64,000 bases of DNA from NCBI GenBank assembly GCA_910589415.1, contig OU342638.1, positions 14,238,014-14,302,013 on the forward strand, written 5' to 3'. Under the pieces are notes generated by a model. The model saw nothing but the letters and a program-made list of their open reading frames with translations, made no database searches and was not told where the DNA came from. Position numbers and translations under genes: made by a program. Positions 27,686 through 53,860 of the stretch are shown in pieces; the stretch's first letter is position 1, and every line of letters starts with the position of its first letter. Origin of the DNA: Malachius bipustulatus (lineage: Eukaryota; Arthropoda; Insecta; Coleoptera; Melyridae).

Positions 27686-28384
27686 ATGAAGAAGAGAGGT
27701 GCCGGCTTACTTAACACTCTAATTAACAAGTTACCATTTGAACTGCGCATACCATCATATAATTTTTGCGGACCGGGTACTAAACTGGAAGAACGGTTAG
27801 CTAGAGGCGATACGGGCATAAATCCACTCGACGAAGCTTGCAAGCAACACGATATCAGCTACTCGAGCTATCCCGATCTCGAACATCGTCATCAGGCCGA
27901 TCTAATTCTACAGAAAAAAGCTGTTGAGCGGCTGACTGCTAAAGACTCTAGTTGGAAAGAAAAAGCCGCAGCGTTGCTTGTAGCCGGTGCGATGAAAGGT
28001 AAACGGATTATGGGTTCCGGAACGAAGAAGAAGAAACCGAGCAAGAAAGGTTCCGGCATGCGTCGTAAACGTAGGATTATTAAGCCGCCCGAGAAAATTG
28101 GTGGATTCATTTTCTCTATCCCTTTGCTTATGGGGGCCCTGGGGGCTTTGGGTAGCTTAGGAGGCGCTGCAGCCGGCATAGCCAAGTCAGTGAACGATGC
28201 CAAGGCGGCTAGTCAAAGTTTGGAGGAAACAAAACGTCATAATGCCGCCATGGAACGATTGAAGACGGGTAAAGGTGTCTACTTACCATTCAAAAAACAA
28301 GTTAAGGGTAGCGGATTATACCTGAAACCGTACAAGAAAGGTTTGGGATTGTATTTTTATCGCCCTCCAAAAAACTACCAATAA
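27686..28384 (+). CDS. Capsid component with phospholipase A2 domain and hydrophobic segment
   Basis: The 232-residue frame from ATG 27686 contains the secretory-type phospholipase A2 signature: a calcium-loop sequence NFCGPGT at about residues 26-32 and the catalytic segment DEACKQHDISY at about 49-59. In the family the His-Asp pair activates water to cleave phospholipid. A Lys/Arg-rich region (about 103-135) follows, then a Gly/Ala/Leu-rich hydrophobic segment at about 139-165, then a basic tail. PLA2 domains in parvovirus capsids help breach membranes during entry, and adintovirus-like elements carry a comparable protein. The pairing with a hydrophobic segment suggests a membrane-active virion protein (inference). 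The frame is intact and the gene heads a + strand block of virion genes. Confidence 0.9.
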   Translation: MKKRGAGLLNTLINKLPFELRIPSYNFCGPGTKLEERLARGDTGINPLDEACKQHDISYSSYPDLEHRHQADLILQKKAVERLTAKDSSWKEKAAALLVAGAMKGKRIMGSGTKKKKPSKKGSGMRRKRRIIKPPEKIGGFIFSIPLLMGALGALGSLGGAAAGIAKSVNDAKAASQSLEETKRHNAAMERLKTGKGVYLPFKKQVKGSGLYLKPYKKGLGLYFYRPPKNYQ

Positions 28385-28401
28385 AGCTACCTCGCCGTGC
28401 A

Positions 28402-28773
28402 TTGTCAAACATCGATCTATTACATTACGTCAAAGTATTGCACTTGCCTTATTTTCGAGGAATTTTTATGAGAGATGCTCTACCGAAGACTATTAAATCA
28501 AGGGAATGTGGAATTGTCAACCTCGACGATGAATCCGGCGATGGAACACACTGGGTCGCTTATGTAAAGTGCAATTTTCAAGTTGAATATTTCAATAGCT
28601 TAGGGGACCTGAGACCGCCGACCGAATTGATAACCTATTTCCACAGCGATGGTAACCAAAATAAAATAATATACAACAGCACTAGATTTCAATCTCCTAA
28701 TTCATATAACTGCGGACACTTATGTCTACAATTCTTATATAGCAACACTTTCTTCTTAAATCGTCAGTGTTGA
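28402..28773 (+). CDS. Adenain-type cysteine protease (start codon unclear)
   Basis: This is a maturation protease of the adenovirus-protease/C5 fold. The catalytic residues are visible: His in GTHWVAY (about residue 50), an acidic or Asn position in VEYFNSLG, Gln in RFQSPN and Cys in YNCGHLCLQF (about 104). It would cleave capsid precursors. The length of about 123 residues fits the Polinton form. The start is odd: the coding similarity extends to TTG at 28402, and the open frame continues upstream into the phospholipase gene without an ATG. The first in-frame ATG (28468) would remove the conserved N-terminus. Either a non-ATG start is used or the ATG was lost. Confidence 0.85.
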   Translation: MSNIDLLHYVKVLHLPYFRGIFMRDALPKTIKSRECGIVNLDDESGDGTHWVAYVKCNFQVEYFNSLGDLRPPTELITYFHSDGNQNKIIYNSTRFQSPNSYNCGHLCLQFLYSNTFFLNRQC

Positions 28774-29519: not shown

Positions 29520-29693
29520 ATGGTAACCATATTCCAATCCAGACATCCGCAATTCGTGCAAACAAACGTGAAATCACGTAACATCAAGCGTGGTAAAGGG
29601 ATATCGAAAACCTGCAAAGTTCGTTCTCACAATCGTCTCACTGTAGAAAACATACGTTTTCTTAAGGCTTTAGGCTTTAAGGTGAAAAAATGA
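29520..29693 (+). CDS. Small basic virion-type protein (57 aa)
   Basis: ATG 29520 is chosen because the open frame upstream has only a GTG. The product is strongly basic (KSRNIKRGKG, RSHNRL) and ends in RFLKALGFKVKK. Its TGA overlaps the ATG of the major capsid gene as ATGA, implying coupled expression. Small basic peptides at this place resemble the core or DNA-condensing peptides of related viruses, but that role is inferred. Confidence 0.65.
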   Translation: MVTIFQSRHPQFVQTNVKSRNIKRGKGISKTCKVRSHNRLTVENIRFLKALGFKVKK

Positions 29694-30904
29694 GTATATT
29701 CGATGTATCAGCCAAACCGTTAGTCGATAATAGTATTGTTGACTCTCAGTACCACACACATCAACCTGCCACGACTGTTTTCAACTATAATGACGAGATT
29801 CGAATAGCCATAGAAGGTGATAGACCAACATTACCCAGTGAGAGTTTCATTTTCATAGCAGGACGACTGCTTAAAGATGATGGTAAACCCTCTAGCACGG
29901 CCGCAATCGTTAACAACGGCTTGGCCCATATTTTTAGTGAAATACGCTACGAAATTAATGGAATCACTGTAGACAGCGTATCGAAAGTGGGCATTACATC
30001 AACTATCAAAGGGTTGCTATCATACACACCCAATCAAATTCGAAGACTTGTAAATGCCGGTTGGAAACCTGACGATGAAACATCCAAATTACCACGAAAC
30101 GCCAATGGATCCTTCACAGTTTATATTCCGCTTGGTATGATTCTCGGCTTTGGTGAAGACTACAAGAAAGTAATATTGAACATTCGACAAGAACTTATTT
30201 TAATACGCAGCAGCAATGATAAGAATGCAATTTACAACAGCAGCTCAACGGAATCTTGTGTGATTCACATCGATAAGATACATTGGAAAATACCTCATAT
30301 CATCGGAAGTCTGCAAACCGAACTCGCGTTGGCGAAATACATGGAGAAAAATATCGACACTGTTCTGAAATTTCGTAGCTGGGAACTGCACACCAAGTCC
30401 GGACTGTCTACAACTAATATTCACTCATGGAATATAAAATCTGTTAAGAAAAGTCAATCTCCTTTGTACGTGATATTAGCTTTCCAGTCAAACCGAGATG
30501 GAAAGAGTGAAAAAGACACCAGCAAATTTGATCACTGCAAAATTAAAAATGCAAATGTTTACTTGAACAGCACCAAGTATCCCTACGATAATTTAAATGT
30601 TGATTTTGAAAATCATCAGTACTGCAATCTATATGAGTATTATGCAAACTTCCAACGCAGCTACTACAATTCTGAACCTGAACCGCTGTTAAGTGTTGAG
30701 AAATTCAGATCTTCAAACCCGATGGTGGTATTAGACTGTTCCAAGCAACCGGAAAATATAGCGTTTCAAAACCAAACCATTAATATTCTTTTGGAATTTG
30801 AAACTATCAGCGCCCTCCCTGAAAATATTGTGGCTTATTGTCTGCTCATATATGAACGCTCAGTTGCTTACAACGCGTTAACCAAATACGTCAAACATCT
30901 TTAA
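29690..30904 (+). CDS. Polinton major capsid protein (double jelly-roll type)
   Basis: The frame is intact at 404 residues and overlaps the upstream gene by four bases. Dense predicted beta strands in two halves, no membrane span, an N-terminal FDVSAKPLVDNSIVDSQYHT and a C-terminal strand segment ending VAYNALTKYVKHL match the major capsid proteins of insect Polintons. Those form hexon-like double jelly-roll trimers. Its place last in the + strand structural block supports this. A poly-A signal AATAAA follows at about 30976. This copy shows no disabling mutation. Confidence 0.88.
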   Translation: MSIFDVSAKPLVDNSIVDSQYHTHQPATTVFNYNDEIRIAIEGDRPTLPSESFIFIAGRLLKDDGKPSSTAAIVNNGLAHIFSEIRYEINGITVDSVSKVGITSTIKGLLSYTPNQIRRLVNAGWKPDDETSKLPRNANGSFTVYIPLGMILGFGEDYKKVILNIRQELILIRSSNDKNAIYNSSSTESCVIHIDKIHWKIPHIIGSLQTELALAKYMEKNIDTVLKFRSWELHTKSGLSTTNIHSWNIKSVKKSQSPLYVILAFQSNRDGKSEKDTSKFDHCKIKNANVYLNSTKYPYDNLNVDFENHQYCNLYEYYANFQRSYYNSEPEPLLSVEKFRSSNPMVVLDCSKQPENIAFQNQTINILLEFETISALPENIVAYCLLIYERSVAYNALTKYVKHL

Positions 30905-31789: not shown

Positions 31790-32543
31790 ATTTTAAATAT
31801 TTATAAAAATCTCCGGTTGAAATAATGGATTTAGACGATTTACCTTGAAATTTACGTCATATCAAAATGTTTGATCTTGGTCTTCAAAATTACATGTGTT
31901 GGGACTTTGAAATATTTCAGATAACCTTGAAATAATTTATCCTTCATCATTACATGCAGTTCACACCTTTCCAACCTTGAAAAATAACCGAGCCGTAAAT
32001 CTAGTCGGCTTAGATAATTTCTGTAATGTGAAATGAAAAGCTTTTGACGACTTATGTAAACCTACAATAAATTATTACCTTGAATTTCATTACCTACAGG
32101 ATCTAGCCGAGGCTTTATTTTGCTTCAAATAACAATACAAAATACCTACATGATCTAGCCGGAGCTTAATTTTCTCATTCATATAATAATAACGATGTCA
32201 CCAGCGCGACGAGCTGGGTAACATGATACCACCTGCTAGCGTTGTTTTCATATTCATAATGTCTCCAAGTTTACCTAATAGGTACCCGACAACTGATTTT
32301 TAATTTATTCAATAATCTTAAAATAATTACTTGATGATTTTTGTCAGGACGGTTGGCCTTCAAAAATAGATTTTTTAAATAAATTAAATCGTATTGTTTT
32401 GCCTTGTTGACCTTGAAGATTTACATGTGGAGAGTTCTGGGACAGCTCGGCCTTGAAAATTTCACCTTCATATAACTCGGCCTTGAAGATTTACACGTGC
32501 GGATTCTAGAACGACCTTGAAGCATATGTACCATTTACATGTG
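31769..32543. repeat. Polinton right TIR, inner portion
   Basis: This is the reverse complement of the inner part of 10128-11080. It stops abruptly at the foldback insertion, after the target TTACATGTG. The outer portion resumes at 46785. Confidence 0.92.
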
Positions 32544-32808
32544 ATGTCCCTGAAGATAGATTCGGATTCGGATTCGTTTTTACACTAAAGGTCAAAAGTA
32601 TTGACCTCAAATAAACTTATTATTTTAAAAATAAATTATAGGCAAAATTAACTTTAAAAGTAAAGTTTAATAGCTTCAAATAAATCAGACGAGTATCTAT
32701 CAAAAGGTCATTAGGTTGGTACCCTAAAAAAATCATCTCTTGCGAAACATTCGTTAATCATCCGTGGATAGAATAAATCCCGCTTTCGTTTCGTTTTTTT
32801 AGCTCAAA

Positions 32809-33509
32809 ATGTTGCCGTGTCCAGAACTCGGAAAACTAAAAACTGCGCCCCCACACCCAAGTCTGAAGCATCATACACACCCCATTAAAAAATCATCTCT
32901 TGCAAATCAAGACTTCGGCCTAAAACTACCCCTAAAACTTTACAAACCGACAGATGATAGCGTAGAGTTAGTAGCAACATTAATCGCCTGCAGCGTCTTC
33001 CAGGAAATCGAAGGGATGCAATCTTCTACGCAAAATGACACCCAGGTATGTGGACTACTACCCTGTAAAAAATCTTCTCTTGCAAACAGTAAGTTTTCCT
33101 AAAATCATCCCTTGATCGAATAAGTCCCGCTTTCGTTTCGTTTTCTTAGTTCGAAATTTTGCCGTCTCCAGAAATCGGAAAACTAAAAACCGCGCACCCA
33201 CACCAAAGCCTGAAGCATCATACACACCCCATTAAAAAATCATCCCTTGCAAATCAAGACTTCGGCCTAAAACTACCCCTAAAACTTTACAAACCGACAG
33301 ATGATAGCGTAGAGTTAGTAGCAACATTAATCGCCTGCAACGTCTTCCAGGAAATCGAAGGGATGCAATCTTCTACGCAAAATGACACCCAGGTATGTGG
33401 ACTGTTACCCTCTAAAAAATCTTCTCTTGCAAACTGTAAGTTTTCCTAAAATCATCCCTTATTTAATAAGTCCGCTATTTTATTTTTTTATGTACAGTTT
33501 GCCAGCTAA
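32809..33509 (+). CDS. Exon-array gene, left foldback arm, copy 1 (predicted)
   Basis: This is a predicted spliced gene. The first exon begins after acceptor GTTTTTTTAG and contains ATG 32809; it ends at CAG|gtatgt (33045). Exon 2 (33150-33392) starts after GTTTTCTTAG and ends at CAG|gtatgt. Both acceptor-to-donor segments are 243 nt in phase 0, so joining keeps frame. A last exon (33498-33509), after TTTTTTTATGTACAG, adds three residues and a stop. The product is about 163 residues made of two 81-residue units with motifs IGKLKTAHPHQS, KKSSLANQDF and DDSVELVATLIAC. I recognise no domain. Reading on past the donors would give the 96-97-codon open frames, but splicing explains the conserved boundaries better. 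Expression is unproven. Confidence 0.5.
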
Positions 33510-33647
33510 TCATCCGTCGGTTTACAGCTCCTAAAGCAATGAGGTTAGGAATTGACCTGATCATCGTTCATATGTCAATTACTATATATATCTAATTATT
33601 AATTACTATATATGTCTAATACTATTTGTTATAGACTAACAGCCGAT

Positions 33648-33852
33648 ATTATAAAGGCTCATTAAGTTAACGGGCAGATTTCTGTGGCCATTTCTGAAGA
33701 AGGTATCGAGTCCAAGTGGAAATTTTTTAAATTTATGTATTTTTGACATGAAATTTATTACAAAAATGTTAATAAATGTCATTTGAAGTCGATATTAGCT
33801 TCAAAAACGAGCACAGAAATCTGCCCGTTAGCCTAATGAGCCTTTATAATAT
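33648..33852. repeat. MITE in foldback arm (also 37106-37310 and 42700-42904)
   Basis: TATTATAAAGGCTCATTAAG and its complement, each leading into GGGCAGATTTCTGTG or its complement, form terminal inverted repeats of about 40 bp around a loop of about 125 bp. A copy is present in each arm and in the tandem duplicate, so it was there before the arms formed. Confidence 0.7.
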
Positions 33853-34260
33853 TTGCTGTAAGATCACTTGACTTACAGACCGTCGTTATTTTATAAAAGC
33901 TGAATGTTTCTGTGCCCATGTCCCGTACGAAAATTAATAGGAACGATGCAACTAGACTATGAAGTTTGGATCATCGTGGCTTTGGCGAGTAACAGCTAAA
34001 GAGGGTGTATAAAATCACTCATTGACATTATAAAGGGTATTTTTTTAAACTTAAAGGGCATGAAGGGAATGAAAAAATGGGCGAAAAATTCCCTGTCGAC
34101 ATGGGTCTTTGGAGCTTTGGTTTTCGAGATTAAGTTCTTCGAATTTTTTTTTCAATATCTACTAACTGGCTTATCAGAATAACTTAAAATTTCTGACAAT
34201 AATTGTTATACTAATTGGAGTGCATGATTTAATAAAAAAAATTAATAAATTTAATAAATT

Positions 34261-34647
34261 GAAAACGTAGAATCTTTAAAATTATTAGGTTTCAATTTAG
34301 ATAGAAATCTTAATTGGAAATTACATATTATTAATACAATATCAAAAAAACTGTGCAAAGTTTACTTCCAACTTCGATTTTTAAAGAATAAAGGATTACA
34401 AGTAGGAATTTTAAAAACAGTGTATGATTCAAATTTTTATTCTATTTTAAAATATGGAATAATACATTGAGGAAATTCTTTTGATTGGTTGATTATTTTC
34501 AAAATTAATAAAATTGCATAAGAATACTTACTAGGCAATGTTAATCGCATGACATTTTGTAAAAAATTATTTAAAAATTTTAAAATTTTATCATTTCCAA
34601 GTCTTTTCACGAATGTACGAAAGCGTCTAGGGGTCACAAAATTATAA
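34261..34647 (+). pseudogene. LINE reverse-transcriptase C-terminal fragment in foldback arm
   Basis: Reading from GAA at 34261, the + strand encodes a recognisable end of a jockey/CR1-like reverse transcriptase: LKLLGFNLDRNLNWKLHI, then KVYFQLRFLKNKGL and LKYGIIH. It is interrupted by TGA and TAA codons. The same fragment occurs at 37719-38105 and, inverted, at 41905-42291. The 66-codon minus-strand frame at 34437-34637 is its shadow. Confidence 0.7.
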
Positions 34648-35189
34648 TAAAATTTTTATTTTCAATATATTGGAAATATTTTGAATATATTGAAAAAAAA
34701 TCCAATATATTGCTAGCCGCGGAAGCTTATGATGGAAATGTGTCCTCTGTTGTCATGTTTCTCTGTTTCATCTTAGGTTTCATCTAAGTGAAACTAAAAG
34801 TTTACATTCGAGGATTTAACCCCTGATAAGGATTATTATAATTACCGCCATCCCATTCACTGTATTGATGACAAACAACTTATGAATGTTTAAAAAATTT
34901 AATTCAGTAACCAATTAATAATTTTGTAAACTGTGATATTATTAGTGATTTTTTCCAATGCTTTTGGGAGCAGTACATACATAATATTTTTTTCATGATA
35001 ATAATAATTCTCTTATGAATATAAATGCAATATTAAAGCTGCATATCAGCCGTACGTTACTGAAGGGTATTGGTTAATATCACAAAATTCTATTGTGTTA
35101 TAGAATAGGTAAAGCTTATAAAAAAATAGTGTATTTTTTTGTTAAAAAATACACTAATAATTGATTTCATGTAATTTTACTACATATAC

Positions 35190-35370
35190 CACGATACACA
35201 TATACACGGTATGCCGATAGACGATGACGCGCAGGCTGCGTTCCGGTCTTGTGACGTCACGTGGTTCAAAGACTACACCATGAGATTGCTCATATCTTTT
35301 TTATTGTCAAGAATAAAAAAATAATTCTTTGTAGGCTTGCATAGGTCGGCAACGGCTATCCATAATGTTT
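35190..35370. repeat. Truncated copy of the 552-bp MITE
   Basis: The element seen complete at 38648-39199 is cut at 35370 by the end of the tandem-duplication copy, just before the (AT)n tract. Confidence 0.75.
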
Positions 35371-35390
35371 ATATATATATATATATATAA

Positions 35391-38300
35391 TAATTTATCC
35401 TTCATCATTACATGCAGTTCACACCTTTCCAACCTTGAAAAATAACCGAGCCGTAAATCTAGTCGGCTTAGATAATTTCTGTAATGTGAAATGAAAAGCT
35501 TTTGACGACTTATGTAAACCTACAATAAATTATTACCTTGAATTTCATTACCTACAGGATCTAGCCGAGGCTTTATTTTGCTTCAAATAACAATACAAAA
35601 TACCTACATGATCTAGCCGGAGCTTAATTTTCTCATTCATATAATAATAACGATGTCACCAGCGCGACGAGCTGGGTAACATGATACCACCTGCTAGCGT
35701 TGTTTTCATATTCATAATGTCTCCAAGTTTACCTAATAGGTACCCGACAACTGATTTTTAATTTATTCAATAATCTTAAAATAATTACTTGATGATTTTT
35801 GTCAGGACGGTTGGCCTTCAAAAATAGATTTTTTAAATAAATTAAATCGTATTGTTTTGCCTTGTTGACCTTGAAGATTTACATGTGGAGAGTTCTGGGA
35901 CAGCTCGGCCTTGAAAATTTCACCTTCATATAACTCGGCCTTGAAGATTTACACGTGCGGATTCTAGAACGACCTTGAAGCATATGTACCATTTACATGT
36001 GATGTCCCTGAAGATAGATTCGGATTCGGATTCGTTTTTACACTAAAGGTCAAAAGTATTGACCTCAAATAAACTTATTATTTTAAAAATAAATTATAGG
36101 CAAAATTAACTTTAAAAGTAAAGTTTAATAGCTTCAAATAAATCAGACGAGTATCTATCAAAAGGTCATTAGGTTGGTACCCTAAAAAAATCATCTCTTG
36201 CGAAACATTCGTTAATCATCCGTGGATAGAATAAATCCCGCTTTCGTTTCGTTTTTTTAGCTCAAAATGTTGCCGTGTCCAGAACTCGGAAAACTAAAAA
36301 CTGCGCCCCCACACCCAAGTCTGAAGCATCATACACACCCCATTAAAAAATCATCTCTTGCAAATCAAGACTTCGGCCTAAAACTACCCCTAAAACTTTA
36401 CAAACCGACAGATGATAGCGTAGAGTTAGTAGCAACATTAATCGCCTGCAGCGTCTTCCAGGAAATCGAAGGGATGCAATCTTCTACGCAAAATGACACC
36501 CAGGTATGTGGACTACTACCCTGTAAAAAATCTTCTCTTGCAAACAGTAAGTTTTCCTAAAATCATCCCTTGATCGAATAAGTCCCGCTTTCGTTTCGTT
36601 TTCTTAGTTCGAAATTTTGCCGTCTCCAGAAATCGGAAAACTAAAAACCGCGCACCCACACCAAAGCCTGAAGCATCATACACACCCCATTAAAAAATCA
36701 TCCCTTGCAAATCAAGACTTCGGCCTAAAACTACCCCTAAAACTTTACAAACCGACAGATGATAGCGTAGAGTTAGTAGCAACATTAATCGCCTGCAACG
36801 TCTTCCAGGAAATCGAAGGGATGCAATCTTCTACGCAAAATGACACCCAGGTATGTGGACTGTTACCCTCTAAAAAATCTTCTCTTGCAAACTGTAAGTT
36901 TTCCTAAAATCATCCCTTATTTAATAAGTCCGCTATTTTATTTTTTTATGTACAGTTTGCCAGCTAATCATCCGTCGGTTTACAGCTCCTAAAGCAATGA
37001 GGTTAGGAATTGACCTGATCATCGTTCATATGTCAATTACTATATATATCTAATTATTAATTACTATATATGTCTAATACTATTTGTTATAGACTAACAG
37101 CCGATATTATAAAGGCTCATTAAGTTAACGGGCAGATTTCTGTGGCCATTTCTGAAGAAGGTATCGAGTCCAAGTGGAAATTTTTTAAATTTATGTATTT
37201 TTGACATGAAATTTATTACAAAAATGTTAATAAATGTCATTTGAAGTCGATATTAGCTTCAAAAACGAGCACAGAAATCTGCCCGTTAGCCTAATGAGCC
37301 TTTATAATATTTGCTGTAAGATCACTTGACTTACAGACCGTCGTTATTTTATAAAAGCTGAATGTTTCTGTGCCCATGTCCCGTACGAAAATTAATAGGA
37401 ACGATGCAACTAGACTATGAAGTTTGGATCATCGTGGCTTTGGCGAGTAACAGCTAAAGAGGGTGTATAAAATCACTCATTGACATTATAAAGGGTATTT
37501 TTTTAAACTTAAAGGGCATGAAGGGAATGAAAAAATGGGCGAAAAATTCCCTGTCGACATGGGTCTTTGGAGCTTTGGTTTTCGAGATTAAGTTCTTCGA
37601 ATTTTTTTTTCAATATCTACTAACTGGCTTATCAGAATAACTTAAAATTTCTGACAATAATTGTTATACTAATTGGAGTGCATGATTTAATAAAAAAAAT
37701 TAATAAATTTAATAAATTGAAAACGTAGAATCTTTAAAATTATTAGGTTTCAATTTAGATAGAAATCTTAATTGGAAATTACATATTATTAATACAATAT
37801 CAAAAAAACTGTGCAAAGTTTACTTCCAACTTCGATTTTTAAAGAATAAAGGATTACAAGTAGGAATTTTAAAAACAGTGTATGATTCAAATTTTTATTC
37901 TATTTTAAAATATGGAATAATACATTGAGGAAATTCTTTTGATTGGTTGATTATTTTCAAAATTAATAAAATTGCATAAGAATACTTACTAGGCAATGTT
38001 AATCGCATGACATTTTGTAAAAAATTATTTAAAAATTTTAAAATTTTATCATTTCCAAGTCTTTTCACGAATGTACGAAAGCGTCTAGGGGTCACAAAAT
38101 TATAATAAAATTTTTATTTTCAATATATTGGAAATATTTTGAATATATTGAAAAAAAATCCAATATATTGCTAGCCGCGGAAGCTTATGATGGAAATGTG
38201 TCCTCTGTTGTCATGTTTCTCTGTTTCATCTTAGGTTTCATCTAAGTGAAACTAAAAGTTTACATTCGAGGATTTAACCCCTGATAAGGATTATTATAAT

Positions 38301-38828
38301 TACCGCCATCCCATTCACTGTATTGATGACAAACAACTTATGAATGTTTAAAAAATTTAATTCAGTAACCAATTAATAATTTTGTAAACTGTGATATTAT
38401 TAGTGATTTTTTCCAATGCTTTTGGGAGCAGTACATACATAATATTTTTTTCATGATAATAATAATTCTCTTATGAATATAAATGCAATATTAAAGCTGC
38501 ATATCAGCCGTACGTTACTGAAGGGTATTGGTTAATATCACAAAATTCTATTGTGTTATAGAATAGGTAAAGCTTATAAAAAAATAGTGTATTTTTTTGT
38601 TAAAAAATACACTAATAATTGATTTCATGTAATTTTACTACATATACCACGATACACATATACACGGTATGCCGATAGACGATGACGCGCAGGCTGCGTT
38701 CCGGTCTTGTGACGTCACGTGGTTCAAAGACTACACCATGAGATTGCTCATATCTTTTTTATTGTCAAGAATAAAAAAATAATTCTTTGTAGGCTTGCAT
38801 AGGTCGGCAACGGCTATCCATAATGTTT
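35391..38828. repeat. 3438-bp tandem duplication, second copy
   Basis: This is the second copy of 31933-35370. It contains a duplicated piece of the Polinton TIR (35391-36001), then the foldback left end again at 36002. Confidence 0.92.
36267..36967 (+). CDS. Exon-array gene, left foldback arm, copy 2 (predicted)
   Basis: This duplicate has the same structure as the gene at 32809-33509: coding segment from ATG 36267 to 36503, exon 36608-36850, terminal exon 36956-36967. No differences from copy 1 were seen. In the palindromic sense this copy is the one directly continuous with the loop and right arm. Confidence 0.5.
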
Positions 38829-39199
38829 AAAAAATTTTCACGGCCAACTAAATCCCAGAGTTTACATTGTCAACTTTTGTTTTTCTTATAGCCGCCATTG
38901 TTTTTTTATGTCGTTTGGTACAAAAAAATCATGAAAATCAAAATTCAATAACATTAAAAAAAATTGTAAAAATTTCATTTTATTTTTTTCGAAAAAAAAT
39001 TAAAGATTTTTCCATAATAGATCTAGCACAAAGAAAAACACAAGCAAAAAGGATGGAAGCAATATAATTTGACATTTATTTTATAAACAACCTCGCCGCA
39101 ATTAATACTTTAAGTAAAAATAAAACCACATGACGTCATTGCGCAGTAGTTGACCAAAATAGAAAACGCAATCGGCATACCGTGTATATGTGTATCGAT
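38648..39199. repeat. 552-bp MITE inserted in foldback left arm
   Basis: The ends CGATACACATATACACGG and CCGTGTATATGTGTATCG are inverted repeats, flanked by CATATAC on both sides (38641-38647 and 39200-39206). The right arm at about 41310-41330 holds the uninterrupted site, showing this insertion came after the palindrome formed. It contains two TGACGTCA-like sites near its inner arms. The 66-codon frame at 38867 has no recognisable features. Confidence 0.75.
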
Positions 39200-39200
39200 C

Positions 39201-41330
39201 ATATACAACCAATATAGACAATTACTACCAAGAATGACGTTTGCCCTGCGAGCGTCAACGTGAATTTGGTTGAAATCATTCGAGTGAGTAATTGCTGATT
39301 AATTGCTTTATTGCAGGTAGAATACTACACTTTTTCTACGACCAATAATTAAACCTTCATTAGGAGTTAAATTACTTGAAGCACTTAGCACTGAGCCGTA
39401 ATCCCAAGACAATTATGATTTCTGAGAGTTCATAAAAACAAGCCATTTATGCTATTTATTGAATCCATGTGTTTATATAACAATCTATCCAAGTAATTTT
39501 TGAAAAGAAAACGCGTTTTTTTGTTGACCTAGTCTCTATTCCTAACATTTTTTACTGCAAAATAGTAACTGTATGTTACCAAATTATAAGTAAATTTTTT
39601 TCTTGATGAATTAATTGATGGAGGAAATAGCACTTTATTAAATCTTCCAAACTCAAACTACAGCTTGACATGTCTTGCAAAATTTGATTTGCATTCATGA
39701 TGGTTGTATAAATCGGTTGCTACTGGCATGTATCTTTGTAATTATTATGATATATTTGCATAAAACAGCACAGTGAGCACACTACTATTAAACTATGTAT
39801 ATGAATTAGGTGCGTAAGTTATGTCCTCGAAACTAAAAAATCACTACACTGCCTTTTAACAGAAACATAATTGAAAGCACCTACTTCCATTGGGAACGGA
39901 TCTATTTCATTTGGGCACCAAGTATTATAGAAAATCTAGAAGTTCGACATTTTATTTTTCAATATATTAAATTTTTTTCCAATATATTCGATTTTTTTTT
40001 CAATATATTCAAAATATTTCCAATATATTGGATTTTTTTTCCAATATAAATATTCAAAATATTTCCAATATATTGAAAATAAAAATTTTATTATAGTTGT
40101 GTGACACCTAGGCGCTTTCGTACAAATGATTATAAATTCTGAATATGTATTCAGAAGATAATTCATAATGAGTGATGGTATTATGTTTATTTAAAATACT
40201 TGTATTAGAATTCCTGGTATTAGAATTGAAAAAAGTAAATAAATTTTTATTTTTATGTGCAAAACAGAGACATTCGTACGAAAGCGCCTAGGTGTCACAC
40301 AACTATAATAAAAATTTTATTGTCAATATATTGGAAAAAAAATCCAATATAGGTATTGGAAATATTTTGAATATATTGAAAAAAAAATCCAATATATTGG
40401 AAATATTTTGAATATATTGAAAAAAAAAATCCAATATATTGGAAATATTTTGAATATATTGAAAAAAAAATCCAATATATTGGAAATATTTTGAATATAT
40501 TGAAAAAAAATCCAATATATTGGAAAAAAATTCAATATATTGAAAAATAAAATGTCGAACTTCTAGATTTTTCTATAATACTTGGTGCCCAAATGAAATA
40601 GATCCGTTCCCAATGGAAGTAGGTGCTTTCAATTATGTTTCTGTTAAATGGCAGTGTAGTGATTTTTTAGTTTAGAGGACATAACTTACGCACCTAATTC
40701 ATATAGTTTAATAGTAGTGTGCTCACTGTGCTGTTTTATGCAAATATATCATAATAATTACAAAGATACATGCCAGTAGCAACCGATTTATACAACCATC
40801 ATGAATACAAATCAAATTTTGCAAGACATGTCAAGCTGTAGTTTGAGTTTGGAAGATTTAATAAAGTGCTATTTCCTCCATCAATTAATTCATCAAGAAA
40901 AAAATTTACTTATAATTTGGTAACATACATACAGTTACTATTTTGCAGTAAAACATGTTAGGAATAGAGACTAGGTCAACAAAAAAACGCGTTTTCTTTT
41001 CAAAAATTACTTGGATAGATTGTTATATAAACACATGGATTGAATAAATAGCATAAATGGCTTGTTTTTATGAACTCTCAGAAATCATAATTGTCTTGGG
41101 CTTACGGCTCAGTGCTAAGAAGCACTCCTTAAGTAATTTAACTCCTAATGAAGGTTTAATTATTTGTCGTTGATAAAGTGTAGTATTCTACCTGCAATAA
41201 AGCAATTAATCAGCAATTACTTACTCGAATGATTTCAACAAAATTCACGTTGACGCTCGCAGGGCAAACTTCATTCTTGTTAGTAATAATTGTCTATATT
41301 GGTTGTATATGTAGTAAAATTACATGAAAC
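39201..41330. repeat. Central palindrome and AATATATT minisatellite of the foldback element
   Basis: Sequence from 39201 to about 40122 is mirrored from about 40274 to 41330, leaving a loop of about 150 bp. Inside are arrays of about 40-bp units of the form TCCAATATATTGGAAATATTTTGAATATATTGAAAAAAA at 39950-40080 and 40320-40545, with smaller copies at 34660, 38120 and 41800. The small Ile/Phe/Tyr-rich open frames here are low-complexity artefacts. Confidence 0.8.
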
Positions 41331-41904
41331 AATTATTTTTTTATAAGCTTTACCTATTCTATAACACAATAGAATTTTGTGATATTAACCAATACCCTTC
41401 AGTAACGTACGGCTGATATGCAGCTTTAATATTGCATTTATATTCATAAGAGAATTATTATTATCATGAAAAAAATATTATGTATGTACTGCTCCCAAAA
41501 GCATTGGAAAAAATCACTAATAATATCACAGTTTACAAAATTATTGGTTACTGAATTAAATTTTTTAAACATTCATAAGTTGTTTGTCATCAATACAGTG
41601 AATGGGATGGCGATAATTATAATAATCCTTATCAGGGGTTAAATCCTCGAATGAAAACTTTTAGTTTCACTTAGATGAAACCGAGGATGAAACAGAGAAA
41701 CATGACAACAGAGGACACATTTCCATCATAAGCTTCCGCGGCTAGCTTGAGGATTAGTGAGAATGTTAAACAAAACAAACACAAAATCACTAGTTTTTCA
41801 ATATATTGGATTTTTTTTTCAATATATTCAAAATATTTCCAATATATTGGATTTTTTTTCAATATATTCAAAATATTTCCAATATATTGAAAATAAAAAT
41901 TTTA

Positions 41905-42291
41905 TTATAATTTTGTGACCCCTAGACGCTTTCGTACATTCGTGAAAAGACTTGGAAATGATAAAATTTTAAAATTTTTAAATAATTTTTTACAAAATGT
42001 CATGCGATTAACATTGCCTAGTAAGTATTCTTATGCAATTTTATTAATTTTGAAAATAATCAACCAATCAAAAGAATTTCCTCAATGTATTATTCCATAT
42101 TTTAAAATAGAATAAAAATTTGAATCATACACTGTTTTTAAAATTCCTACTTGTAATCCTTTATTCTTTAAAAATCGAAGTTGGAAGTAAACTTTGCACA
42201 GTTTTTTTGATATTGTATTAATAATATGTAATTTCCAATTAAGATTTCTATCTAAATTGAAACCTAATAATTTTAAAGATTCTACGTTTTC
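41905..42291 (-). pseudogene. LINE reverse-transcriptase fragment, right foldback arm
   Basis: This is the inverted copy of 34261-34647, with the same in-frame stops, adjoining the same AATATATT minisatellite at 41800-41890. Confidence 0.7.
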
Positions 42292-43042
42292 AATTTATTA
42301 AATTTATTAATTTTTTTTATTAAATCATGCACTCCAATTAGTATAACAATTATTGTCAGAAATTTTAAGTTATTCTGATAAGCCAGTTAGTAGATATTGA
42401 AAAAAAAATTCGAAGAACTTAATCTCGAAAACCAAAGCTCCAAAGACCCATGTCGACAGGGAATTTTTCGCCCATTTTTTCATTCCCTTCATGCCCTTTA
42501 AGTTTAAAAAAATACCCTTTATAATGTCAATGAGTGATTTTATACACCCTCTTTAGCTGTTACTCGCCAAAGCCACGATGATCCAAACTTCATAGTCTAG
42601 TTGCATCGTTCCTATTAATTTTCGTACGGGACATGGGCACAGAAACATTCAGCTTTTATAAAATAACGACGGTCTGTAAGTCAAGTGATCTTACAGCAAA
42701 TATTATAAAGGCTCATTAGGCTAACGGGCAGATTTCTGTGCTCGTTTTTGAAGCTAATATCGACTTCAAATGACATTTATTAACATTTTTGTAATAAATT
42801 TCATGTCAAAAATACATAAATTTAAAAAATTTCCACTTGGACTCGATACCTTCTTCAGAAATGGCCACAGAAATCTGCCCGTTAACTTAATGAGCCTTTA
42901 TAATATCGGCTGTTAGTCTATAACAAATAGTATTAGACATATATAGTAATTAATAATTAGATATATATAGTAATTGACATATGAACGATGATCAGGTCAA
43001 TTCCTAACCTCATTGCTTTAGGAGCTGTAAACCGACGGATGA

Positions 43043-46000
43043 TTAGCTGGCAAACTGTACATAAAAAAATAAAATAGCGGACTTATTAAATAAGGGATGA
43101 TTTTAGGAAAACTTACAGTTTGCAAGAGAAGATTTTTTAGAGGGTAACAGTCCACATACCTGGGTGTCATTTTGCGTAGAAGATTGCATCCCTTCGATTT
43201 CCTGGAAGACGTTGCAGGCGATTAATTTTGCTACTAACTCTACGCTATCATCTGTCGGTTTGTAAAGTTTTAGGGGTAGTTTTAGGCCGAAGTCTTGATT
43301 TGCAAGGGATGATTTTTTAATGGGGTGTGTATGATGCTTCAGGCTTTGGTGTGGGTGCGCAGTTTTTAGTTTTCCGATTTCTGGACACGGCAAAATTTTG
43401 AACTAAGAAAACGAAACGAAAGCGGGACTTATTCGATCAAGGGATGATTTTAGGAAAACTTACAGTTTGCAAGAGAAGATTTTTTACAGGGTAACAGTCC
43501 ACATACCTGGGTGTCATTTTGCGTAGAAGATTGCATCCCTTCGATTTCCTGGAAGACGTTGCAGGCGATTAATGTTGCTACTAACTCTACGCTATCATCT
43601 GTCGGTTTGTAAAGTTTTAGGGGTAGTTTTAGGCCGAAGTCTTGATTTGCAAGGGATGATTTTTTAATGGGGTGTGTATGATGCTTCAGGCTTTGGTGTG
43701 GGTGCGCGGTTTTTAGTTTTCCGATTTCTGGAGACGGCAAAATTTCGAACTAAGAAAACGAAACGAAAGCGGGACTTATTCGATCAAGGGATGATTTTAG
43801 GAAAACTTACGGTTTGCAAGAGAAGATTTTTTACAGGGTAACAGTCAACGTACCTGGGTGTCATTTTGCGTAGAAGATTGCATCCCTTCGATTTCCTGGA
43901 AGACGCTGCAGGCGATTAATGTTGCTACTAACTCTACGCTATCATCTGTCGGTTTGTAAAATTTTAGGGGTAGTTTTAGGCCGAAGTCTTGATTTGCAAG
44001 GGATGATTTTTTAATGGGGTGTGTATGATGCTTCAGGCTTTGGTGTGGGTGCGCAGTTTTTAGTTTTCCGATTTCTGGACACGGCAAAATTTTGAACTAA
44101 GAAAACGAAACGAAAGCGGGACTTATTCGATCAAGGGATGATTTTAGGAAAACTTACAGTTTGCAAGAGAAGATTTTTTACAGGGTAACAGTCCACATAC
44201 CTGGGTGTCATTTTGCGTAGAAGATTGCATCCCTTCGATTTCCTGGAAGACGTTGCAGGCGATTAATGTTGCTACTAACTCTACGCTATCATCTGTCGGT
44301 TTGTAAAGTTTTAGGGGTAGTTTTAGGCCGAAGTCTTGATTTGCAAGGGATGATTTTTTAATGGGGTGTGTATGATGCTTCAGGCTTTGGTGTGGGTGCG
44401 CGGTTTTTAGTTTTCCGATTTCTGGAGACGGCAAAATTTCGAACTAAGAAAACGAAACGAAAGCGGGACTTATTCGATCAAGGGATGATTTTTGGAAAAC
44501 TTACGGTTTGCAAGAGAAGATTTTTTCCAGGGTAACAGTCAACGTACCTGGGTGTCATTTTGCGTAGAAGATTGCATCCCTTCGATTTCCTGGAAGACGC
44601 TGCAGGCGATTAATGTTGCTACTAACTCTACGCTATCATCTGTTGGTTTGTAAAGTTTTAGGGGTAGTTTTAGGCCGAAGTCTTGATTTGCAAGGGATGA
44701 TTTTTTAATGGGGTGTGTATGATGCTTCAGGCTTTGGTGTGGGTGCGCGGTTTTTAGTTTTCCGATTTCTGGAGACGGCAAAATTTCGAACTAAGAAAAC
44801 GAAACGAAAGCGGGACTTATTCGATCAAGGGATGATTTTAGGAAAACTTACGGTTTGCAAGAGAAGATTTTTTACAGGGTAACAGTCCACATACCTGGGT
44901 GTCATGTTGCGTAGAAGATTGCATCCCTTCGATTTCCTGGAAGACGTTGCAGGCGATTAATGTTGCTACTAACTCTACGCTATCATCTGTCGATTTATAA
45001 AGTTTTAGGGGTAGTTTTAGGCCGAAGTCTTGATTTGCAAGGGATGATTTTTTAATGGGGTGTGTATGATGCTTCAGGCTTTGGTGTGGGTGCGCAGTTT
45101 TTAGTTTTCCGATTTCTGGACACGGCAAAATTTTGAACTAAGAAAACGAAACGAAAGCGGGACTTATTCGATCAAGGGATGATTTTAGGAAAACTTACGG
45201 TTTGCAAGAGAAGATTTTTTACAGGGTAACAGTCCACATACCTGGGTGTCATGTTGCGTAGAAGATTGCATCCCTTCGATTTCCTGGAAGACGTTGCAGG
45301 CGATTAATGTTGCTACTAACTCTACGCTATCATCTGTCGATTTATAAAGTTTTAGGGGTAGTTTTAGGCCGAAGTCTTGATTTGCAAGGAATGATTTTTT
45401 AATGGGGTGTGTATGATGCTTCAGGCTTTGGTGTGGGTGCGCAGTTTTTAGTTTTCCGATTTCTGGACACGGCAAAATTTTGAACTAAGAAAACGAAACG
45501 AAAGCGGGACTTATTCGATCAAGGGATGATTTTAGGAAAACTTACAGTTTGCAAGAGAAGATTTTTTACAGGGTAACAGTCCACATACCTGGGTGTCATT
45601 TTGCGTAGAAGATTGCATCCCTTCGATTTCCTGGAAGACGTTGCAGGCGATTAATGTTGCTACTAACTCTACGCTATCATCTGTCGGTTTGTAAAGTTTT
45701 AGGGGTAGTTTTAGGCCGAAGTCTTGATTTGCAAGGGATGATTTTTTAATGGGGTGTGTATGATGCTTCAGGCTTTGGTGTGGGTGCGCGGTTTTTAGTT
45801 TTCCGATTTCTGGAGACGGCAAAATTTCGAACTAAGAAAACGAAACGAAAGCGGGACTTATTCGATCAAGGGATGATTTTAGGAAAACTTACGGTTTGCA
45901 AGAGAAGATTTTTTACAGGGTAACAGTCAACGTACCTGGGTGTCAATTTGCGTAGAAGATTGCATCCCTTCGATTTCCTGGAAGACGCTGCAGGCGATTA

Positions 46001-46519
46001 ATGTTGCTACTAACTCTACGCTATCATCTGTCGGTTTGTAAAGTTTTAGGGGTAGTTTTAGGCCGAAGTCTTGATTTGCAAGGGTTGATTTTTTAATGGG
46101 GTGTGTATGATGCTTCAGGCTTTGGTGTGGGTGCGCGGTTTTTAGTTTTCCGATTTCTGGAGACGGCAAAATTTCGAACTAAGAAAACGAAACGAAAGCG
46201 GGACTTATTCGATCAAGGGATGATTTTAGGAAAACTTACGGTTTGCAAGAGAAGATTTTTTACAGGGTAGTAGTCCACATACCTGGGTGTCATTTTGCGT
46301 AGAAGATTGCATCCCTTCGATTTCCTGGAAGACGCTGCAGGCGATTAATGTTGCTACTAACTCTACGCTATCATCTGTCGGTTTGTAAAGTTTTAGGGGT
46401 AGTTTTAGGCCGAAGTCTTGATTTGCAAGAGATGATTTTTTAATGGGGTGTGTATGATGCTTCAGACTTGGGTGTGGGGGCGCAGTTTTTAGTTTTCCGA
46501 GTTCTGGACACGGCAACAT
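43043..46519 (-). CDS. Exon-array gene, right foldback arm, ten units (predicted)
   Basis: On the minus strand the outermost unit has ATG 46519. Ten acceptor-to-donor segments of 243 nt follow at exact 347-bp spacing: 46283-46525, 45936-46178, 45589-45831, 45242-45484, 44895-45137, 44548-44790, 44201-44443, 43854-44096, 43507-43749 and 43160-43402. A terminal exon 43043-43054 supplies the stop. All units are open in the same frame and phase 0, so any number can be joined; the predicted product is about 811 residues. Donors are CAG|gtatgt in seven units and CAG|gtacgt in three (43854, 44548, 45936). In those three units, readthrough would stop after two codons, yet the donor stays good. Most differences among units change amino acids, so selection is not demonstrated. 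The function is unknown. Confidence 0.5.
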
Positions 46520-46560
46520 TTTGAGCTAAAAAAACGAAACGAAAGCGGGATTTATTCTAT
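43103..46560. repeat. 347-bp tandem array, ten units, with dimeric higher order
   Basis: Ten units of exactly 347 bp occur with no indels visible. Units with gtatgt and gtacgt donors alternate in part of the array (43507/43854, 44201/44548, 45589/45936), suggesting amplification of 694-bp dimers. The left arm has only two units (about 32800-33450). Confidence 0.92.
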
Positions 46561-46784
46561 CCACGGATGATTAACGAATGTTTCGCAAGAGATGATTTTT
46601 TTAGGGTACCAACCTAATGACCTTTTGATAGATACTCGTCTGATTTATTTGAAGCTATTAAACTTTACTTTTAAAGTTAATTTTGCCTATAATTTATTTT
46701 TAAAATAATAAGTTTATTTGAGGTCAATACTTTTGACCTTTAGTGTAAAAACGAATCCGAATCCGAATCTATCTTCAGGGACAT

Positions 46785-46962
46785 TTACATGTGGACAGTT
46801 CTGGGACAGTTCGGCCTTGAAAATTTCACCTTGAAATAATATATTAACGCTAGGTTAGATCATATAGTTCGGCCTTGAAATGAGTCGACCTTGAAGATTT
46901 ACATGTGCGGATTCTAGCCCAAGGCCATGACCTAAGGCCAGAACCCCCCAACTCTATCTACT
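46785..46962. repeat. Polinton right TIR, outer portion
   Basis: After the second TTACATGTG the sequence resumes exactly where the TIR stopped at 32543 and ends CTCTATCTACT, followed by the ATGAAT duplication. It matches 10128-10306 in reverse. Confidence 0.92.
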
Positions 46963-47183
46963 ATGAATTATATGGTATCGGTTCCAGACATTACAGTAAC
47001 CTGAATTTTTCAATAATTTTTATCACGGTTATTGAAAAAATTACCTTTAAACTCGGATGAGGGAAACTCTGTAACTTGAAAATCAACCGTTGGATTCAAT
47101 TTTTTTTGCAGAATATCCTTGATTTTAATGGACTCTATATCGCCCTGCATTCGGAGTGCGCGAGTTACTGATCAGCCTGTATA
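46963..47183. repeat. Right part of the MITE split by the Polinton
   Basis: This is the inverted partner of the 9768 end; it finishes CTGATCAGCCTGTATA and has TA at the edge. Confidence 0.7.
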
Positions 47184-48009
47184 CATCGATGCTAATAGTA
47201 GGGAAAATTGATGATTCAAAAAAAGTTCAACGCAAACAATATCAATTATTGTCAGAAAGATCCCACAGATATTAGACAGCATCATAGTTGCTGGGATCTG
47301 ATATCCTCTCTGCCAGTATCATTGGATCTCGATCATTTCTAAAACAGAGTACTGTGACGGGAATAATTGAACGGCTAAGTGCAGAAAGGGAAGTACTTCA
47401 AAATATTAGTTCTGAGAAAATCAATATAAACTGGGTAGGCACTGCTCTTAATCTGCATCGACGCATTTTTTTTATTAATTAATTGTGCCATGTAAATAAA
47501 TAATTATTATGAAGAAGAGCGAGTTTCACTTTGTGTGTTACCTTATCTGTGCCATTATTATTTTTAAAATCTCGCAAATTTAAAACTATTAAGAGCAGAA
47601 AGTAAAGTATTGTTGTAGTACTTCCCTTTCTGCATCAAACGGGATTTTCTGCGTAGCCTATAAGAACAACTAAATCGCATCGCATGACTTTCTTTTCTGC
47701 GCCAAACGATCGGGCTAGGTCGAAACTATATGAAAGCATGTGTAACTCATTTTTCGTTAAAATGTTAGTACTTCCCTTTCTGCACTTAGCCATTCAATTA
47801 TCTATCTATTACCGAAGTTACTCAGCCATATTTCGGCGATATCGTAGGCCAGAAAACAATTTCAAGAGATAAAGTTACGAAGTTCAGTAGTTTTTGTATT
47901 GAGACCCTTACATTTTGGTAAGATATTGTGAAATCGAACTTGTCAGACAATTTTGAGTTTGATTGCTATTTGGAGAGCACACCCAAGATGTCTTACAGAG
48001 ATTGCAGCT
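47184..48009. other. Intronic DNA with a small inverted repeat
   Basis: No gene is seen. ATTGAACGGCTAAGTGCAGAAAGGGAAGTACTT at about 47363-47399 recurs inverted at about 47768-47802, with related CTTCCCTTTCTGCATC copies between, so the segment is probably another MITE. Confidence 0.5.
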
Positions 48010-49233
48010 TCCTCAAAAATACAGCACAGTTACGGTCCCAGACAGCATGTGCCACGTTTGTGTCAGGAAAATTTTCCTAATGCCACAACAATTATTAACA
48101 CATTCTAAGGTCAAAGATTTGCAGTCTCGCAACGTATAGCTAGGAATAGACGAAGCGATTTGTTGGCCGATTTGATCGCCACGAGCAAACCCGGAAGCTA
48201 AATCTCTTCGTCTGTGGTAACTCAGCGCGCCATGCCAAGAGCCATGCCAGAACCGTAGACGCCTCTGGCATGGTTTGATAGTATTTTCTGCCATAAACGA
48301 ACAGACTTTTCTGCCAGACTGGCGCGATACGCGATACACTCACAGCAGCTCGTTTTCTTTTTTTGTTATACTTTGACATTATTATCAAATATTAATTAGC
48401 TTAAAAATGCCACGTAAAAATAATTTTCACTAACTACAACTAGGTATAAGCGTTAAAAAAGTATTTTAGGCATGGCTCGCGACCTCTTGAAATTTTCTAC
48501 AGATCGAGCCACGCAAATCCGACCGATAAATCGTGTAGTTTCCCCATAAACGTACACATTTGTATGTGATGAGCCACTCCGACGGATAATTCGTACGATT
48601 AGCGTGGACGTTTATGGTGTGACTTGAAAAATCTGTCGACGCTGCTGGCCACGAGCAAATCCGCTGAATTTGCTCGTGGCGATAAAATCGGCAAGCAAGT
48701 CGCTTCGTCTATTCCTAGCTTATGTTCTTCAGCACATCTAGGACATACTATTTTGTTCTTACACTTACCGGAGGTATGGTGAAAACTGTTACAGTTATTG
48801 CATCGCGTAACCTCAAGTGCATCGAATACCAAACATCTATCATAGTCTAATAAAACCCTGCCGTGATCCAGCACGCGATTGTAAGATGCTGCATTGACCT
48901 GTAGGATGGCCTGAAACATATTGATCGATTTTTACCAGCGCTTACCGATACCATACGCAATTCAGAGTCTGCAAAAACGGCACCATTTTGGGTCTGTAGG
49001 AACCTGACAATGTCTTCGGCACTAAGCTTTTCAGTTATACGTATACCCACAATTTTGATGCGAGGATGCAGCTTGGAAAATTCTTTGATGTCATATTTTT
49101 TAGACAATTTATTTCCAGCTATTTCTTTGAATTTGTTCGCATCCACATCGGATGAGCAGTTCAATACAATGCCACCGCCAGCAATATGTTTTCCTCCTAT
49201 TATGTCGACCTTGGATGCTACAAGCGGAGAAAA
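48010..49233 (-). pseudogene. LINE ORF1 (gag-like) remnant interrupted by a MITE
   Basis: Minus-strand reading from about 49233 gives a jockey/I-type ORF1: KIVGIRITEKLSAEDIVRFL, then after a frameshift near 48915 the zinc-knuckle sequence CNNCNSFHHTSGKC and CPRCAEEH. The coding match stops at 48720, where a MITE with inverted ends begins, and may resume at 48136-48010 with a further Cys-containing stretch (LECVNNCCGIRK). It is a dead retrotransposon copy. Confidence 0.65.
48137..48720. repeat. MITE inserted in the LINE ORF1
   Basis: TAGCTAGGAATAGACGAAGC at 48137 is mirrored by GCTTCGTCTATTCCTAGCTTA at 48720, and the inverted similarity extends about 52 bp to GCCACGAGCAAA. It interrupts the coding similarity of the LINE. 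Confidence 0.65.
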
Positions 49234-49391
49234 TAATAATAATATTATTAAGGAGACGAAATCGAATAATAATTGTAGTCTCTTGGCAAATAATTTTAGG
49301 TCATCTGAATTTTGATGGATAAAAGTTGAGTGAAAACCAATTCTAAAATAAATGTTTACAATGTCATTTTGTTTCTCCGTGGGTTAAGCAG

Positions 49392-49688
49392 ATGGACCAG
49401 CATGTCCAGAATGAACCGGAAAGAACTCAGACTACTAGTCGGGGTTCTCACCGGTCAGTGAGCAGTCTGAACAGACACCTACAAGTGATGGGGATCACTC
49501 GGGATCCGGTCTGCTCTAAATGCGGAATGGATGACGAGGATTCCTACCATTATATAGGCGTATGCGAGGTATATAGTAGCCTCAGGCTCAACATTTTTGG
49601 ATCTGAGGAGCTACAAGAGGAAGAAATGAAACTCCTCTCATACAACAACCTTCTGGCCTTTATTAAAAGGTCGGGGAGATTCGAGTAG
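49392..49688 (+). pseudogene. LINE 3' end with C-terminal zinc-finger region
   Basis: The + strand encodes LNRHLQVMGITRDPVCSKCG and a CxxC...H...C cluster typical of the C-terminus of R1/jockey-type non-LTR retrotransposon ORF2. It is followed by a stop and a GC-rich 3' tail ending in ACTACTACTACT. A frameshift occurs near 49457, and the 5' portion is absent. Confidence 0.65.
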
Positions 49689-50253
49689 GAGTTTCATCAT
49701 GGTTCGGGTACGGCGAAAAGGGCCCTCGGTGGCCTAGTCGCTTGGGGTGCCACCCCAACCCACCATACCACTACTACTACTTCTCCGTGGGTTATAAATG
49801 GCAGAAATTACTGAAATCAAATCTCCTCGATTACAGCGTATTCTATGACCAATCGCAAAAAATATTTCAGAGAGTCTTGACTATTATTATTATTTTTTTT
49901 TTTGCTAAATACTAATTCTCGATATAAAAAAGGTTTATTATTTAAAATGCCAAAGTTGGCTAATGAACAATGTTCGAGGCCAACCCAACCTGTCACACAC
50001 ACATAAAATGTCAAAGTTCAAAGATCCCCGACTCCCTTGCAAGAGGTGAGGGGTGCAAGGTGGTTATTGTCTTGAATCGATGTCCCCCAGCCAATAACAC
50101 CACTTTTGTAGAAAACATTTTTCAGCAGAATGCTCACTTTTCGTAATATTTGTATATTTCCGATTATCAGAATCACCTGTATACACTTTTACTTTTGATT
50201 TAAATTGTTAATAATGAGCTTCTTGTAACGCTAATGGATCTTTTTGATTTCAG
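49689..50253. other. 3' end of intron 2
   Basis: LINE tail and AT-rich DNA lead to the acceptor TTTTTGATTTCAG at 50241-50253. No gene is seen. Confidence 0.5.
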
Positions 50254-50353
50254 ATGTTGCAAGAAACTGAATTCTTGGTCAAATTATATATTATACACCC
50301 ACTACATAACGAATCAAATTTTAATGGCTATTTTGATTTTTGATATCATCGTG
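50254..50353 (+). CDS. Insect odorant receptor, exon with TM5
   Basis: The exon begins with A, completing the CA codon left at 6256 (Gln), and ends in phase 0 at GTG|gtgagt. It encodes 33 residues, including a hydrophobic stretch (ILMAILIFDIIV) fitting the fifth membrane span. The phase match across a 44-kb intron is exact. Confidence 0.82.
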
Positions 50354-53772: not shown

Positions 53773-53860
53773 GTAAATGTTTTTTACTTATTATTATTTT
53801 TTTTTGAACCACGTGATTGTTGATAAACTATTATTGTATGTTTTTATATTATATTTTTAG

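Follow-up and report, generated by a model that had tools for sequence, protein, structure and literature searches.

Foldback elements of the FB/NOF type of Drosophila have arms of short tandem repeats and 9-bp target duplications, with some copies carrying a central gene. Tetris of Drosophila virilis is described as a non-autonomous element with ~220-bp arm units variable in number and a middle domain without apparent coding capacity, its flanking domain having a 37-bp similar stretch in common with the unit (PMC4079207), and the arm repeats of Galileo, a member of the P superfamily, contain binding sites for its transposase domain—a role described as untested for Foldback and Phantom (PMC3688188). 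Tm1 of root-knot nematodes, a Mutator/foldback family, is mostly flanked by target duplications of 9 bp (PMC3169594), the Rehavkus Mutator-like elements (MULEs) of arthropods and annelids exhibit 9-bp duplications, terminal inverted repeats of 26-400 bp, a PHD finger and a minisatellite (PMC6446971), and a survey of arthropod MULEs gives terminal inverted repeats with a maximum of 1193 bp, neither 'foldback' nor 'tandem' occurring as a word in its main text (PMC13359780). The present analysis concerns an element of this kind located in a stretch of 64,000 nucleotides, hereafter the window (G000:C16:14238014-14302013), of the 544-Mb genome of the beetle Malachius bipustulatus, assembled in 52 contigs. 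Its arms had been predicted, in a reading of the DNA preceding this work, to be arrays of phase-0 exons forming complete genes; at the level of titles and abstracts, the literature yielded no foldback element whose arms contain a tandem-exon gene, which is no proof of absence.

The window contains a real, well-bounded foldback transposon of a known kind, without a match to a named family (Table 1). The features defining the foldback class—long inverted arms of tandem repeats, a variable number of these repeats and dispersed copies with target duplications—are all found here, and the original prediction was right in this respect, the arms being inverted relative to each other (99% complementarity in the longest pairs), a 9-bp target duplication enclosing the element and related copies occurring on other contigs. 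Very probably, it is a non-autonomous member of a MULE/Rehavkus-like family, with arm units that serve as DNA. The reading of the arms as an exon-array gene is not supported.

The DNA search for copies of the element, the numbers of which are lower bounds, revealed ten elements with common 12-bp ends, ATGTCCCTGAAG...CTTCAGGGACAT, with one mismatch in the copy C6b. Nine of the ten are flanked by 9-bp target duplications, the exception being C6a with 4 bp. The terminal domain, used as a 217-bp query (32544-32760), was found at 97-100% identity over its full length in the other nine two-ended elements, save for one end of C6c (96% over 80 bp). There is also an eleventh array, C6d, with a single end visible, and a twelfth, C14b, only ~70% alike, for which an exact 13-base pattern detected no element end. 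The sequences divide the elements into two subfamilies, A covering the window copy together with C3a, C1, C14a and C3b, and B consisting of C17, C2, C6a, C6b and the 2-kb derivative C6c. Foldback copies with different unit numbers do exist, C3b, for example, having arms of 3 and 11 units, C1 of 7 and 7, and C17 of 9 and 6. The derivative C6c (L037) measures 1,986 bp and retains both ends, a single array of five units and the 9-bp target duplication AAATTATTG. It may be added that the left flanks of the window element (32500-32543) and of C2 (L033) have CCTTGAAGCATATGTA in common, i.e. two of the ten insertions occupy a near-identical site, apparently within one other repeat, perhaps reflecting a target preference.

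Concerning the supposed gene, all the parts from which it had been assembled are present in the sequence: the 347-bp arrays at their predicted positions, the 243-nt phase-0 open segment of each unit with its acceptor and with donors of the CAG/GTATGT and CAG/GTACGT forms, an ATG at each of 32809, 36267 and 46519, and, as the last acceptor, TTTTTTTATGTACAG followed by the 12-nt TTTGCCAGCTAA tail. The statement that only the outermost unit of an arm carries an ATG is valid for the near-start one at codon 3 and fails for the unit as a whole, since there is an in-frame ATG at codon 72 in the internal unit checked, and Met occupies this place in nearly all the listed A units. In the outermost unit, codon 3 reads ATG in 11/11 arms of subfamily A and ATT in 9/9 arms of subfamily B.

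The view of the arms as a gene that keeps its frame while gaining or losing units is, by contrast, not supported. From 11 arrays, 132 units were extracted, three partial units of C14b having been left out. In subfamily A, 69 of the 70 units are open, the remaining one being truncated and hence without a donor; in subfamily B, including the copies that bear a transposase, only 16 of the 58 are open. Of the 42 broken units, most measure 232 or 238 nt and contain stops downstream of the shift, many having another one ahead of it. Interruption of the 243-nt segment by stops and indels in other copies, named beforehand as a sign speaking against a gene, occurs in these units as well as in the two aligned outgroup arrays. 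The latter, C6d (four units) and C14b (three partial units), lack in the alignment the 5 nt that separate the 243-nt form from the 238-nt one, so that parsimony makes the out-of-phase form the ancestral one; it should be pointed out that the distance of C14b makes the gap placement uncertain, another alignment putting one gap elsewhere. The donor is missing from all four C6d units—three of them read CTATATGT at the GT site, whereas the fourth ends short of it—and the GT is absent from two of the three partial units of C14b.

The substitutions in subfamily A were evaluated for 67 units of 243 nt, two 249-nt units and one donorless unit having been set aside. The 37 distinct variants consist of 28 nonsynonymous (N), 9 synonymous (S) and 0 stop changes, compared to 25.5, 9.9 and 1.5 expected, and are distributed over the three codon positions as 12/13/12. 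The ratio dN/dS (ω) across copies, named beforehand as a check, gave no support for coding, its value being 1.21 with a 95% confidence interval of 0.55-2.91. For the variants found in at least three elements (14 N, 5 S), ω is 1.09 (0.37-3.86), and for the 16 B units of 243 nt (15 N, 7 S) it is 0.89 (0.34-2.57); as the units share ancestry, all these intervals are only a guide. No purifying selection on the 243-nt segment was detected among the A units, and strong constraint on it is ruled out. The density of variants per site in 53 A units amounts to 0.148 in the 'exon' and 0.163 in the 'intron'.

With regard to more distant relatives, two inner units compared with C6d are identical at 0.868 and 0.877 of the 'exon' and at 0.947 and 0.941 of the 'intron' positions. 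The changes relative to C6d fall on the codon positions as 3/11/13, 4/10/11 and 3/10/13, positions 2 and 3 thus behaving alike, which does not look coding-like. In a conserved coding gene, the exon would be expected to be the best-kept part; in C14b and four diverged arrays (L044-L047), however, the 'exon' from codon 16 on, where alignable, matches at 0.62-0.73 and the 'intron' segments at 0.67-0.82, all these values being derived from local alignments, which favour the best-aligning parts. A short-word search with one 81-residue unit among 5.8 billion predicted proteins found no homologue, which is weak evidence, and the exact unit belongs to no Pfam family, in agreement with the earlier remark that it contains no recognised domain; an offset query running into the intron-like part gave two sub-threshold Pfam matches, the best one to Vanin_C (E=0.0048). 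A conserved protein domain in the unit was rejected on these grounds, and a structured RNA family was rejected likewise, no Rfam family being present in the window at gathering thresholds. As the principal explanation, the tandem-exon gene is eliminated by the loss of frame in subfamily B, the polarity given by the outgroups and the neutral-looking substitutions.

What the units do contain is a repeated motif. An internal unit has AATCWTCYCTTR three times, at unit position 89 in the 'exon' and at positions 269 and 301 in the 'intron', and the 21-bp stretch around the first two copies matches at 19 of 21 positions, a level equalled in 1 of 2000 shuffles. Within the window, the motif has 43 matches in the element—the duplicated left array counted twice—and none in positions 1-31900 and 46801-64000. 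In the most diverged relatives, the alignable remainder of the unit is the part from the 'intron' motif through the first bases of the 'exon'. Because the motif occurs on both sides of the supposed donor and its 'intron' copies lie in the part that persists in the diverged relatives, a function of the units as DNA is indicated.

The elements of subfamily A possess no frame of at least 110 codons besides their array units, and there is no such frame in the interior (38830-43078) of the window element. Two members of subfamily B, C17 and C2, each contain one uninterrupted frame from stop to stop, of 1452 and 1450 codons, respectively, and the DNA of C6a and C6b is 99% identical to this transposase region with the frame interrupted. 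A Ulp1-type Peptidase_C48 domain is present in the C17 protein (E=4e-14) and also in some of its protein relatives P0001-P0008. Among these, P0001 has 67% identity across 74% of the region searched; the alignment consensus of the relatives displays the blocks FDATGSVV, VxDWSFAL and CCAHFxKMI. A profile search detected no MULE transposase domain in the C17 protein or in P0001-P0008, with sub-threshold ZSWIM1-3 RNaseH-like matches in P0002 (E=0.0093) and P0005 (E=0.14). The PHD profile is above the cut-off in P0006 only and sub-threshold in P0004, and the C-terminal part of the C17 protein has no Pfam match, PHD included. P0006, a distant relative, unites a YqaJ-like recombinase, PHD and Ulp1 in one protein of 1450 residues.

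As far as the fold is concerned, the structure model of P0005, with a mean predicted local distance difference test (pLDDT) of 65.8, has its best match in the PDB with ISCth4, an IS256-family enzyme (E=8.4e-5, but template-modelling scores of 0.21/0.36 and a root-mean-square deviation of 17.8), followed by Hermes, a hAT enzyme (E=1.6e-3); the model of P0001, with a pLDDT of 42, was too poor for a fold search. Target duplications in the IS256/MULE superfamily are 8-11 bp long, and the 9 bp of the present elements fit both this range and the size seen with Rehavkus. IS256 and MULE are described as related, with 9 bp as the usual size of the duplication (PMC3169594). The C17-type protein is thus probably of the IS256/MULE type, near Rehavkus, in the sense that it would work like these enzymes, membership being unproven.

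Taken together, the splice-framed open segment can be regarded as a by-product, a view built on the common ends, the 9-bp duplications, the variable number of units, the transposase frame of the relatives, the derived state of the reading frame and the neutral-looking substitutions. For its movement, the window element probably relied on a large IS256/MULE-type transposase provided in trans by longer relatives with the same ends, i.e. the B-type elements would supply, or would have supplied, the enzyme and the A-type ones would be its passengers. The arms may lengthen and shorten by unequal exchange and copying between the 347-bp units, and the AATCWTCYCTTR copies, multiplying along the arm in this way, are putative docking sites for the transposase or a host factor. 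The open segment itself could have originated with a 5-nt insertion in an ancestor shared by A and part of B, and may have become universal in A as this subfamily spread, presumably with no protein product.

Several observations weigh against the interpretation of the units as DNA. Although an open frame of this length is unremarkable in a 347-bp tandem unit—among 5000 dinucleotide shuffles of an internal unit, P=0.15 for at least 99 and 0.39 for at least 81 residues—a splice-framed open exon is rare by chance, and this is the best argument for a gene: with an acceptor, a strict donor, phase 0 and an open frame, 3 of the 5000 shuffles reached at least 120 nt and none at least 240 nt, the figures for a loose donor being 79 and 4, respectively, all with criteria set after seeing the sequence. 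Furthermore, all 69 scorable A units are intact, the sole change of 'exon' length in A (+6 nt, in C3b) is in frame, and there are 0 stops against the 1.5 expected, which is not significant (P=0.19). The outer C6d unit shows no difference between 'exon' (0.872) and 'intron' (0.856), codon position 1 changes least relative to C6d (3-4 changes), and the first 45 nt of the 'exon' (0.53-0.89) are at about the 'intron' level in most diverged arrays. Finally, the transposase region of four young B copies has 12 N, 9 S and 1 stop change versus 14.4, 6.7 and 0.9 expected, and the substitution test has low power here.

The possibility that the A arms are a young expressed gene, its tandem phase-0 exons making the length of the protein follow the number of units, has in its favour, besides the open A units and the rarity in shuffles, the ATG at codon 3 in 11/11 outermost A units versus 0/9 in B, and an ω interval reaching 2.9, which leaves room for diversifying selection. 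It is nevertheless very unlikely, given ω of ~1.2 in A with a lower bound of 0.55, the frame broken in most units of the very subfamily that holds the transposase, the two aligned outgroup arrays without the phasing 5 nt and mostly without a donor, and the unit that has neither a homologue (on the weak evidence of the short-word search) nor a Pfam family. Expressed in terms of origin, the 5-nt insertion, the donor and the terminal ATG, not seen in C6d, would have created a newborn phase-0-exon gene in the A arms with the product length set by unequal exchange; the chance of this is slim, and it is the rarity of the splice-framed exon in shuffles that leaves it at all.

Equally hard to credit is that the units are transcribed and spliced as non-coding exons, such as an untranslated leader of the transposase or a structured RNA. 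The left-arm units and the transposase frame do run in the same direction in C17 and C2, and the CTTAG acceptor persists in most of the listed B units and in the inner C6d units; the C6d units, however, have no donor, TTGG replaces TTAG in four B units (C17-3 and C6a-5, -6 and -7), and the window gave no Rfam family. An array that is satellite-like, amplified by recombination only and without a role in transposition, is also unlikely, if less so. The identity of the units and their copy number fit unequal exchange, and Tetris foldback repeats are described as seeding satellite DNA (PMC4079207), but the arrays lie inside defined ends with 9-bp duplications at 9/10 loci, which means that they travel with the element, and what stays alignable in the most diverged relatives extends from the 'intron' motif into the first 'exon' bases.

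Table 1. Features of the foldback element and of its immediate borders in the window
Feature	Position	Strand	Remark
Whole foldback element, subfamily A, very probably non-autonomous	32544..46784	.	14,241 bp including internal 3.4-kb duplication
Left target-site duplication	32535..32543	+	TTACATGTG, 9 bp
Right target-site duplication	46785..46793	+	TTACATGTG, 9 bp
Left terminal (non-array) domain	32544..32755	+	
Right terminal domain	46573..46784	-	inverted copy of left
Left array	32756..33473	+	two 347-bp units, each a 243-nt open segment plus 104 bp
Second left array	36214..36931	+	exact duplicate of first
Right array	43079..46572	-	10 units of 347 bp
Example of exon-like open segment	33150..33392	+	243 nt, 81 codons, phase 0
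Motif in exon-like segment	33238..33249	+	AATCATCCCTTG, unit position 89
Proposed final acceptor and tail	33483..33509	+	12-nt tail with stop
Exact tandem duplication, first copy	31931..35371	+	host flank, left arm and part of interior
Exact tandem duplication, second copy	35389..38829		
Interior	38830..43078	.	AT-rich minisatellites, period ~41 bp

It should be noted that the two copies of the tandem duplication listed in Table 1, each 3441 bp long, have zero mismatches and are joined at a (TA)n run, so that they may represent either a very recent event or an assembly artefact; the second left array, lying inside this exact duplication, is not independent evidence. The ~41-bp AT-rich minisatellites of the interior are found at 39949-40075, 40318-40553 and 41795-41889. 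A further part of the interior (34230-34640), like the interiors of L031 and L033 (with an open reading frame EYLLGNVNR... in C6b and C2), resembles by eye a fragment of a decayed non-LTR (long terminal repeat) retrotransposon. Just to the left of the transposon there is probably a Polinton/Maverick-like, virus-like element, with a double jelly-roll capsid-like domain (PF21738, E=3.4e-95) at 29681-30904 and a sub-threshold match to an adenoviral-type protease (E=0.0073) at 28312-28770, both on the forward strand.

The locus illustrates how easily a homogenised repeat imitates an exon array: one accident is copied into every unit, and ten intact units therefore do not count as ten observations. 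With it, the known foldback families are joined by one in which transposase-bearing members, with frames of 1450-1452 codons and a Ulp1-type domain in the one scanned, exist beside the non-autonomous ones, and the repeated motif is a candidate for a role in end recognition. Should the arms be transcribed and spliced after all, the locus would exemplify the birth of a gene within the ends of a transposon.

Compared with the known systems, the elements described here resemble FB/NOF in the tandem-repeat arms and the 9 bp and differ from it in that the units of the latter are short, both judged from its general description rather than from sequence. Like Tetris, the window element is non-autonomous, with long inverted repeats, an outer flanking domain and variable tandem units; it is set apart by description, not by sequence, in having units of 347 bp instead of ~220 bp, and no source of transposase was found for Tetris, whereas the present relatives have long frames of their own. 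The foldback-like arms and internal tandem repeats are in common with Galileo, whose extra transposase binding sites are the model proposed here for the motif; unlike the P-type transposase of Galileo with its THAP domain, the enzyme in this case would have an IS256/MULE-like core accompanied by a Ulp1-type domain. The likeness to Tm1 consists in composite arms, variable tandem repeats and the occurrence of non-autonomous beside transposase-bearing forms, the differences being its repeats of 13-15 bp and its Phantom-type transposase of 496 residues, with 'Ulp1' absent from the main text of the report (PMC3169594). Finally, with respect to Rehavkus, compared by description and not by sequence, the present arms are longer and arrayed. 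The Rehavkus minisatellite precedes the 3' end, and the ~41-bp interior arrays of the window element are reminiscent of it, the pieces of C17 having, besides the 336-bp arrays, only two-copy repeats. The present family has the 9-bp duplication in common with Rehavkus; some of the protein relatives carry a C48 domain and one of them, P0006, a PHD domain.

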